Below, piece after piece: positions 49,895 to 52,947 of a stretch of 64,000 nucleotides of DNA. Position 1 is the stretch's first letter. Each line of letters begins with the position of its first letter. Both the position numbers and the translations under genes were made by a program. This DNA is from Nitrosovibrio tenuis (GTDB lineage: Bacteria > Pseudomonadota > Gammaproteobacteria > Burkholderiales > Nitrosomonadaceae), in the NCBI RefSeq assembly GCF_900109785.1, contig NZ_FOBH01000001.1:248001-312000 (forward strand), in the 5' to 3' direction. The notes under the pieces are model-generated. The model was not told the DNA's origin, ran no database searches, and saw only the letters and a program-made list of their open reading frames with translations.

Positions 49895-50578
49895 ATGGTC
49901 AAATATCGCATCGCGCCGAGCATTCTTTCCGCAAACTTTGCCAAGCTGGGCGAGGAAATCACTGCTGTGATCGATTCTGGGGCGGATTTTATCCATTTTG
50001 ATGTGATGGATAATCACTACGTGCCGAATCTAACCATCGGACCGCTTGTCTGCGAGGCCATTCGCCCCCTGACCGACGCGATTATCGATGTACACCTGAT
50101 GGTGGAACCTGTGGACCGCATTGTTCCCGACTTCGCCAAGGCCGGGGCCAACATCATCTCCTTCCACCCGGAAGCAACCCGGCATATCGATCGTACTATC
50201 GGGCTCATCAAGGAGCAGGGGTGCAAGGCTGGTCTGGTATTCAATCCGGCTACGCCCCTTAATTATCTCGATCATGTGCTGGATAAGCTGGACCTGGTGC
50301 TGATCATGTCGGTCAACCCCGGGTTCGGCGGGCAAAAATTCATCCCTGAAGCGTTGCCAAAACTCAAAGCGGTGCGCAAACGCATTGACGAAATAGGCAA
50401 GGATATCTTGCTGGAAATTGACGGTGGGGTGAAAGTCGATAACATCGCCGAAATTGCTCGGGCGGGAGCCGACACCTTTGTTGCGGGTTCAGCTATTTAC
50501 GGCGCGGGCAGAGATAGCGATCCCCATCGTTATGACAGTATCGTGGCGGCCTTGCGGGCGGAACTGGCCAAGGTTTAA
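49895..50578 (+). CDS. rpe: ribulose-phosphate 3-epimerase
   Basis: Rpe interconverts ribulose 5-phosphate and xylulose 5-phosphate in the pentose phosphate and Calvin cycles. This 227-residue TIM barrel has [73 protein letters not shown] and FVAGSAIYG. Both metal-binding His and the catalytic Asp pair are present. AAGGAAG precedes the ATG. It is followed by gph after 28 bases. A TAAAAT at 49850-49855 could be the -10 of its promoter. Confidence 0.97.
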
Positions 50579-50606: not shown

Positions 50607-51332
50607 GTGAACAAGAGCGTTTCTCACCCCGATGCGGCTGTGGTTGAAATAGACTTTCCTCTATCGGTTAAGGCCGTTATGATCGACCTGGACGGCACGC
50701 TCCTCGATACGGCCAGAGATCTTGCCGAGGCGGCCAACATGATGCTGCGGGAACTGGGCAAAGCCGAGCTGCCGCTCGAAACCATACAGTCTTATATCGG
50801 CAAGGGCATACAGAAACTGGTCAAGCGCACACTCAGTGGTGCTCTTGACGGGGAGCCCGAGGCGGAATTATTCCGAAGAGCAATGCCGATATACGAACGG
50901 GACTATGCGAAAACGCTGTGCATCAACACCCAACCTTATCCGGGCGTATTGGAGGGGCTGGTTGCTTTGCGGGAAAACGGTTTTCGCCTAGCCTGCGTGA
51001 CCAATAAGGCGGAGGCCTTTACTCTGCCTTTGCTTCGCCACACCGGTCTGCTGGGTTACTTCGACATCGTTCTTTCAGGCGATAGCCTGCCCAAAAAGAA
51101 ACCCGACCCGATGCCCTTGCTTCATGCCTGTGGACACTTCGGCATCGCACCGCATGAAATGCTGCTGATTGGCGATTCTCTCAACGATGCCCAGGCGGCA
51201 CGTGCGGCCGGTTGCCGTATTTTCTGCGTACCCTATGGTTACAATGAAGGTCGGGATGTGCGTGAACTCGACTGCGACGCTATCGTTTCCTCCCTCTATC
51301 AGGCAACAAAGCTGATCCAGAAATCCTCATGA
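50607..51332 (+). CDS. gph: phosphoglycolate phosphatase
   Basis: A HAD hydrolase of 241 residues removing 2-phosphoglycolate formed by Rubisco oxygenation or DNA repair. VKAVMIDLDGTLLDTARDLA contains the nucleophile Asp and second Asp; VTNK, KKKPDP and LLIGDSLNDAQAARAAGC are the remaining HAD motifs. The start is GTG at 50607, 28 bases after rpe; a longer frame back to 50454 overlaps rpe and is rejected. Its link with rpe is typical of betaproteobacteria and is relevant if the organism fixes carbon by Rubisco. Confidence 0.95.
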   Translation: MNKSVSHPDAAVVEIDFPLSVKAVMIDLDGTLLDTARDLAEAANMMLRELGKAELPLETIQSYIGKGIQKLVKRTLSGALDGEPEAELFRRAMPIYERDYAKTLCINTQPYPGVLEGLVALRENGFRLACVTNKAEAFTLPLLRHTGLLGYFDIVLSGDSLPKKKPDPMPLLHACGHFGIAPHEMLLIGDSLNDAQAARAAGCRIFCVPYGYNEGRDVRELDCDAIVSSLYQATKLIQKSS

Positions 51333-51361
51333 CAACAGTCATAGCTTCAGGAAATCCGGAA

Positions 51362-51427
51362 ATGAAGAGATACATGATCGAAGCCCTGCGCACTTGGCGC
51401 TGGGGGCCCGATCGATGGTGTGCGTGA
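51362..51427 (+). CDS. trpL: trp leader peptide (candidate), with three Trp codons
   Basis: Between gph and trpE a 21-codon frame (MKRYMIEALRTWRWGPDRWCA) runs to TGA at 51425-51427, with a second ATG four codons in (51374). Trp codons are at 51395, 51401 and 51416, so 3 of 21 residues are the rarest amino acid, and the frame lies 47 bases before the trpE start. A terminator-like hairpin overlaps its end. This is what a ribosome-mediated Trp attenuator needs. AGGAAA precedes the first ATG. Not previously known to me for this lineage. Confidence 0.6.
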   Translation: MKRYMIEALRTWRWGPDRWCA

Positions 51428-51448
51428 CACGACGCTGCCGTATTTTTT
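51415..51448 (+). terminator. attenuator terminator in the trpE leader
   Basis: ATGGTG-GCGT (51415-51425, one bulged T at 51421) pairs with ACGCTGCCGT (51432-51441) around a 6-base loop, including three G-U wobbles, followed by ATTTTTT at 51442-51448. The third Trp codon of the leader peptide (51416-51418) lies in the 5' arm, so a ribosome stalled there would stop the hairpin forming and allow transcription into trpE. Confidence 0.55.
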
Positions 51449-51474
51449 CTATTTCCGTTTTTTGGAGTTGAATC

Positions 51475-52947
51475 ATGACCGAAGCCGAATTCAAGGCTCT
51501 TGCGGCGCAGGGATACAACCGTATCCCCATGGTGCTGGAGACATTTGCAGATCTCGACACCCCGCTGTCCGTTTATCTCAAGCTTGCCAACAGGGCTTTT
51601 TCTTATCTGCTTGAATCCGTGCAGGGCGGTGAGCGCTTCGGGCGCTACTCGTTTATCGGCTTGCCCGCCGTGACTCGTATTGAGGTACGGGGTAAGCACA
51701 TTAACCTTGTCAAAGGCATAGACCGGCAAGACATCGAGGCAGGCGATCCGCTCGCTTTCATAGAATCCTATTTATCGCGTTTCAAGGCTTCGCCATATCC
51801 CGGCTTGCCGCGCTTCTGCGGCGGCCTCGTGGGTTATTTTGGTTACGACGTGGTTCGGTACATCGAAAGCAGGCTTGCTGGTCAAGCCGGTCCTGATACG
51901 CTGGCTACGCCCGACATACTATTGCTGCTATCCGAAGAACTGGCGGTGGTGGATAACCTGTCCGGCAAGCTCTATCTTGTTGTTTATGCCGACCCAGGCA
52001 TGGACGATGCATACCTTGCTGCAAAAAAGCGCCTGAAAGAACTGCTGGCGAGCCTGCGCAAGCCCGTGGAAATCCCCGTTGAAGGGCCGTGCAAGCCGGG
52101 TGAGGCTATCACCGAATTCCACGAAAGCGATTTCATCGCGGCGGTGGAGCGCGCCAAGCGCTATATCTTCGATGGGGATATCATGCAGGTCGTGCTTTCG
52201 CAACGGACCAGCAAGCCTTATGGCGCTTCTCCATTAGCTCTATACCGCGCGCTGCGCAGCCTTAACCCTTCGCCATACATGTTTTATTACCACTTTGGCG
52301 ATTTCCACGTCGTGGGTGCCTCGCCGGAGATTCTGGTGCGCCTGGAAGGCGAGACGGTGACCGTGCGCCCTATTGCGGGCACTCGGCCCCGCGGAAAAAC
52401 CGTATCGGAAGACGCGTCACTGGCGGCCGACCTGCTGGCCGATCCAAAAGAACGCGCCGAGCACCTCATGTTGATGGATCTGGGGCGCAATGATGTGGGC
52501 CGCGTGGCGCAGACCGGTACAGTGGCGGTTACGGAGAATATGCAGATCGAACATTATTCCCACGTGATGCACATCGTATCCAACGTGGACGGCAAGCTCA
52601 AACCCGGCCTGAAAGCAATGGACGTACTGCGCGCCACTTTTCCTGCAGGCACCGTCAGTGGCGCTCCCAAGGTAAGGGCAATGGAAATCATTGATGAACT
52701 GGAAGTATCCAAGCGCGGTATCTATGCCGGCGCCGTCGGATATCTTGGATTCAACGGCGACATGGATCTGGCAATCGCTATCCGTACCGGTATCGTCAAA
52801 GAAAATAGGCTGCACGTGCAGGCCGGCGCTGGCATCGTTGCCGATTCCATACCGCACAATGAATGGATCGAAACCCGTAACAAGGCCAGGGCCTTGTTAC
52901 GGGCCGCCGAAATCGCCGAGAGCGGGCTGGACAGTAGAGTGGAGTAA
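51475..52947 (+). CDS. trpE: anthranilate synthase component I
   Basis: TrpE makes anthranilate from chorismate and ammonia supplied by TrpG. The 490-residue protein has the feedback-inhibition motif [20 protein letters not shown] (LLES binds Trp), a chorismate-binding domain with [33 protein letters not shown], and [18 protein letters not shown] leader peptide and attenuator precede it. It follows gph as in many betaproteobacteria, but trpG and trpD do not follow, so the partner is elsewhere. TTGGAG lies 8 bases before the ATG. Confidence 0.96.

Follow-up and report, generated by a model that had tools for sequence, protein, structure and literature searches.

The region described here lies in a 64,000-nucleotide stretch of the Nitrosovibrio tenuis genome (hereafter the window; positions are counted from its first letter). 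The genes rpe, gph and trpE follow one another in this order and are succeeded by rimM, as seen from the ORF list and, for the first three, from Pfam assignments. The host genome is 3.1 Mb in size, and its closest relatives fall into a single genus, which is most likely Nitrosospira (Nitrosomonadaceae). The first-pass annotation had identified the gene downstream of the leader as trpE, and this was confirmed by the Anth_synt_I_N and Chorismate_bind domains detected with Pfam. No Trp-rich leader was found before trpGDC (trpG-trpD-trpC locus, L291) or before trpF (truA-trpF locus, L292) of the same genome, in which only trpE appears to have one. The features of the region are collected in Table 1.

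Table 1. Genes, leader elements and predicted RNA helices around the trpE start in the window
Feature	Position	Strand	Evidence
rpe	49895-50578		ORFs
gph-like HAD phosphatase, directly 5' of the leader	50681..51332 (start approximate)	+	Pfam, ORFs
ATGA, shared by the leader start and gph stop codons	51329..51332	+	sequence; kept in relatives
Trp leader ORF (most likely extent), 32 codons, MTTVIASGNPEMKRYMIEALRTWRWGPDRWCA plus TGA	51329..51427	+	ATGA overlap, order-wide leaders, TGG frame bias
P1 5' strand, anti-RBS within the leader ORF: AGCUUCAGGAAA, CGGAAAU, GAAGAGAUAC	51343..51373	+	fold, covariation, cognate test
P2, hairpin in the leader around Trp codons 1 and 2	51376..51413	+	fold; inner helix covariation
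Trp codon 1 (codon 23 in the 32-codon leader)	51395..51397	+	sequence
Trp codon 2 (codon 25)	51401..51403	+	sequence
Trp codon 3 (codon 30)	51416..51418	+	sequence
P3, short stem-loop at the third Trp codon and the leader stop (stem previously claimed as a terminator)	51417..51439	+	fold; weak as terminator
P1 3' strand: GUAUUUUUUC, AUUUCCG, UUUUUUGGAGUU; includes T6 and the trpE Shine-Dalgarno	51440..51469	+	fold, covariation
trpE Shine-Dalgarno GGAG	51464..51467	+	probability of being unpaired 0.002 (model of free RNA)
trpE, anthranilate synthase component I	51475..52947	+	Pfam PF04715 + PF00425

The TGG codons at 51395, 51401 and 51416 were found exactly where the first-pass annotation had placed them. 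It had assigned them to a 21-codon frame; this frame exists (ATG 51362 to TGA 51425, peptide MKRYMIEALRTWRWGPDRWCA), but the leader probably starts at 51329 and has 32 codons. The Trp-codon frame begins at an ATGA shared with the gph stop codon (TGA, 51330-51332 in the window) in 17 of 23 Nitrosospira genomes, the rest having a nearby or second ATG, whereas no counterpart of the 51362 ATG was found in the Nitrosospira relatives, and the start was therefore placed at the overlap. The leader is presumably translated, and the overlap suggests that its translation is coupled to that of gph, ribosomes finishing gph probably entering the leader at the ATGA.

Loss of the Trp codons in close relatives, which the first-pass annotation had regarded as evidence against a Trp leader, was encountered in part: at least two Trp codons are present in 17 of the 23 Nitrosospira genomes and one in the other 6. 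Most of the one-Trp Nitrosospira leaders retain a Trp near the position of Trp codon 3. In the sister genera of Nitrosospira the leader is mostly gone. Single-Trp leaders with an RWR-like context occur in Nitrosospira genomes G016, G019, G020, G005, G021 and G001 and elsewhere in families f33, f34, f35, f43 and f50; many of the single-Trp leaders have kept the P1 helix described below. In Nitrosospira G021 a TGG to TAG change shortens the leader to MIPENTGIEEYAINAWRP.

The annotation had proposed a compact transcription attenuator, in which the hairpin at 51415-51441 and the T run behind it form an intrinsic terminator that is blocked when a ribosome stands on Trp codon 3. The hairpin is present, but its stability is at chance level (-11.3 kcal/mol, z -1.15, 23 of 200 shuffles equal or better). 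The T run, T6 at 51443-51448, is correctly placed behind the hairpin and ends 26 bases before the trpE ATG (51475). No terminator was found here in a consensus terminator scan, and a d'Aubenton-Carafa-type score, for which the threshold is approximate as the implementation was our own, was sub-threshold in the window (-26.7) and above 0 in only 1 of 22 Nitrosospira regions. The genus has not conserved the U-run; its position is occupied by a mixed pyrimidine tract in the relatives, and in the best fold of the window T6 is paired with GAAGAGAUAC (51364-51373).

The response of P3 to ribosomes was modelled by folding with individual leader codons occupied. A stall at 51416 removed P3, as the proposal predicts; P3 was equally lost with a ribosome on the stop codon, and it survived with a probability of 0.67-0.69 when the ribosome stood on Trp codon 1 or 2. 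High and low tryptophan would therefore hardly be distinguishable by P3. The persistence of a Trp close to the stop in one-Trp relatives fits the compact attenuator, and P1 could help to pull the U-run off the RNA-DNA hybrid, yet given the hairpin, the score and the stall response we regard this explanation as unlikely. Classic attenuation, with a terminator and an antiterminator that escaped recognition through imperfect pairings, could invoke the resemblance of P2, which lies 5' of P3, to a 1:2 hairpin. With Trp codon 1 or 2 occupied, however, no competing pairing that reduces P3 was found in the folding model of the window, and the terminator is not conserved, which makes this variant highly improbable. 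An intrinsic terminator as the main mechanism was rejected on the chance-level hairpin, the lack of a scan match, the poor score and the wrong response to stalling. There was no Rfam match at the gathering threshold in the window or in 20 relatives, and no NCBIfam match. Thus, of the features of a classic trp attenuator the leader was found, and the terminator, the antiterminator and the Rfam match were not.

A much stronger signal came from the fold of the whole region between the leader start and the trpE start. The segment 51329-51477 folds with -61.7 kcal/mol, compared with -39.7 ± 3.7 for shuffled sequences (z -6.0, 0 of 500 as good). The best fold, which takes no account of co-transcriptional folding, is a three-way junction of P1, P2 and P3. 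P1 is a 29-bp helix in three segments (12, 7 and 10 bp) with a mean pair probability of 0.94-0.99, and it joins the 5' half of the leader with the pyrimidine tract and the Shine-Dalgarno sequence of trpE.

In an alignment of 16 Nitrosospira sequences 92.7% of the P1 cells were paired, compared with 56-72% when the partner strand was slid, a comparison in which P1 has an advantage, because these sequences had also supplied the structure. Both sides had changed in 9 of 15 pairs, and double-changed cells numbered 24 against 11.3 ± 3.3 expected (0 of 500 shuffles). The inner helix of P2 also covaries in Nitrosospira. The tests across families described below do not share the bias of the slid controls.

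The survey for leaders covered the trpE upstream regions of 192 genomes, which represent 49 families (GTDB) within the order; leaders were defined as short ORFs starting with ATG and carrying at least two Trp codons near the end. Such leaders precede trpE in 97 genomes and 30 families, the corresponding genome counts being 4.5 ± 1.7 in shuffled sequences and 9 on the reverse strand. Typical peptide ends are WRWRR, SWRWWR and AWLWRRW. TGG occurs 225 times in frame and 15 times out of frame in these leaders, a bias that comes partly from the selection, although 63 of the in-frame TGG exceed the two required per leader. All four third bases are in use in the Arg codons that follow or lie near the Trp codons. 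The confinement of the Trp codons to a single frame, together with this freedom of the Arg third bases, indicates that Trp is kept as codons. From the leader AUG to the first Trp codon the median distance is 39 nt, which would give space for roughly one stalled and one initiating ribosome.

Pairing of the P1 type was then found to extend far beyond Nitrosospira. In a cognate test of 28 families, pairing of the 5' part of the leader with its own trpE start window was far superior to pairing with start windows from other families (mean z -9.2, reached by no permutation). A second collection of 80 further named loci, which partly repeats genomes of the first set and is thus not fully independent, included Vogesella margarita, Dechloromonas, Methylobacillus gramineus, Methylophilus aquaticus, Gallionella, Sideroxydans and Candidatus Nitrotoga; 58 of these loci had leaders, and the same test gave z -13. 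Base composition does not explain the signal, because a control window further upstream gave z values of only -0.8 to -1.2. At least eight P1 pairs can be formed by 75 of 81 leaders, and the Shine-Dalgarno window is paired in 68. In the family average the pairing sets in steeply at the leader AUG, extends roughly as far as the first Trp codon and has faded 15 nt beyond it; in trpE it is highest at the Shine-Dalgarno sequence (0.66) and the start codon (0.67). The location of the downstream Shine-Dalgarno sequence in a conserved RNA structure was thus seen in silico by folding, by covariation and by the cognate tests.

Two observations were made at individual loci of the survey. Around the trpE start of L064 (G074, f15), and also of L060 (G087), P1 consists of two inverted copies of a CCACAGAGACACAGAGG-like repeat (at least 24 bp), and the repeat looks like a dispersed genomic element that was recruited to supply both strands of the helix. 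Loci L251 and L282 come from metagenome bins titled Bordetella parapertussis, in which the N-terminal domain of trpE shares only about 60% identity with the query; the species name seems questionable.

Genomes without a leader served as a further comparison. In the family of the window they had no excess pairing (mean rank 0.55 vs 0.30, p 2e-4), and leader and no-leader genomes differed in the other families, too (p 8e-4). A fixed-window duplex test gave a strong signal also in genomes first classed as leaderless, among them genomes with one-Trp leaders. After the one-Trp leaders had been regrouped the two groups differed, although not completely: the average rank in families without a detected leader was still 0.36, much of the first 'leaderless' signal having come from one-Trp leaders. 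This residual complementarity, like the retention of P1 in one-Trp leaders, could mean that P1 serves mRNA stability or a constitutive damping of trpE, the Trp codons being incidental or relics. The Trp codons are, however, repeated and in frame next to Arg codons with free third bases, and in most families they lie at the end of P1, so that we consider this explanation very improbable.

Outside Nitrosospira an intrinsic terminator was found in 5 of 66 cases, most leader families having none. In the three genomes of GTDB family f4 the terminators are strong and P1 is slight or missing: at loci L204, L195 and L202 (genomes G112, G154 and G188) intrinsic terminators with scores of 9 to 19 lie between the leader and trpE. 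One strong terminator was found in f8. Since these terminators were detected, the tests do discriminate. In the f4 lineages true transcription attenuation seems to operate at trpE, and from these sequence comparisons trpE seems to be under different attenuators in different lineages. The scarcity of intrinsic terminators in leader families is also what would be expected if, with P1 closed, the untranslated trpE RNA were ended by Rho, giving control at the RNA level through a translational switch; such Rho-dependent polarity would supplement a translational mechanism, not replace it, and as a separate explanation we think it quite improbable.

Taken together, the comparative data across the order agree with the earlier proposal that a Trp-codon leader controls trpE, and they speak against its mechanism by way of an intrinsic terminator. 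The architecture, that is, the leader, its Trp codons, P1 with its covariation, and the spread of the arrangement, is well supported by the sequences. We consider it reasonably likely that the region is a tryptophan-responsive translation attenuator upstream of trpE, and low tryptophan would then turn trpE on probably by exposing the translation start, not by blocking a transcription stop. The leader would have a dual role, with the Trp codons at its 3' end and a 5' half that, at the RNA level, acts as an antisense of the trpE start region. When tryptophan is ample, ribosomes would clear the leader, P1 would close in the cell together with P2 and P3, and the trpE Shine-Dalgarno sequence would be hidden. 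At low levels of charged tRNA-Trp, a ribosome would halt at a Trp codon just beyond the end of P1; the halted ribosome and the queue behind it would cover the 5' half of the leader, P1 could not form and trpE would be translated. The trpE start would thus be open only while ribosomes occupy the 5' half of the leader.

Folding with masked parts suggests that the queue is important in this scheme. The modelled openness of the start site (family mean) was 0.32 in free RNA, 0.37 when a single ribosome occupied the first Trp codon and 0.52 with a stall plus a queue; a single stall clearly opened the Shine-Dalgarno sequence in 2 of 28 families, a stall plus a queue in 17. For the window the model leaves P1 intact with one ribosome on any of the Trp codons and requires at least one queued ribosome, whereas in families with short leaders a large part of P1 lies under a single ribosome. 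Judged from this modelling, queue-dependent opening is the weakest link in the account.

Several known systems share parts of this arrangement. In enterobacteria the trpL transcription attenuator (Rfam: Trp_leader) also has a Trp-codon leader peptide directly before trpE; the Nitrosospira regions differ in having no conserved terminator or antiterminator, in the long-range helix that hides the Shine-Dalgarno sequence and in the lack of an Rfam match. In Bacillus subtilis rtpLP-rtpA (anti-TRAP), a Trp-codon leader ORF reportedly controls translation initiation of the next gene and senses uncharged tRNA-Trp, as Chen and Yanofsky are said to have found in 2003 and 2004 (both works cited in PMC11255114). 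There, too, a short leader ORF with Trp codons acts on translation of the following gene, but in that system the downstream Shine-Dalgarno sequence is believed to be masked by the ribosome that terminates on the leader, whereas here the leader RNA pairs with it, and the target is a regulator, not trpE, in another phylum. In ermC-type translational attenuation, stalling in the leader is thought to release a sequestered downstream Shine-Dalgarno sequence (PMC5118997). The same is proposed here, except that codon starvation would be sensed instead of a drug and that the partner of the Shine-Dalgarno sequence is the 5' half of the leader up to its start codon. In TRAP control of B. subtilis the trpE Shine-Dalgarno sequence is likewise concealed in an RNA hairpin at plentiful tryptophan, but this is driven by a protein and involves no leader peptide (PMC11255114). 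Actinobacterial trp operons are preceded by leader peptides with repeated UGG, as here, followed, unlike here, by GC-rich terminators and poly-U; leaders for other amino acids without terminators, resembling our case in this respect, were noted in the same work (PMC1262725). By analogy, the region would work like a translation attenuator that senses Trp codons as the anti-TRAP leader does and hides the Shine-Dalgarno sequence as ermC does. In the open-access literature, to which the search was confined, we found no report of leader control of betaproteobacterial trpE, so that any claim to priority would be provisional.

The wider generalization stands at about even chances in our estimation: that the betaproteobacterial order has a family of Trp translation attenuators in which the 5' half of the leader is antisense to the trpE start region, with the two start codons facing each other, and a ribosome queue behind the Trp codons is the switch, without terminator, antiterminator or regulator protein, some lineages (f4) having swapped to a true terminator. 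According to a survey of Proteobacteria regulons TrpR is found in gammaproteobacteria only and betaproteobacteria lack it (PMC5343134). If the interpretation is correct, this gap would be filled by a widespread Trp sensor that consists of RNA alone and acts on translation. It would also be a clean case of a single short ORF serving as both sensor and antisense, and it would offer paired lineages with translation and transcription attenuation at the same gene.
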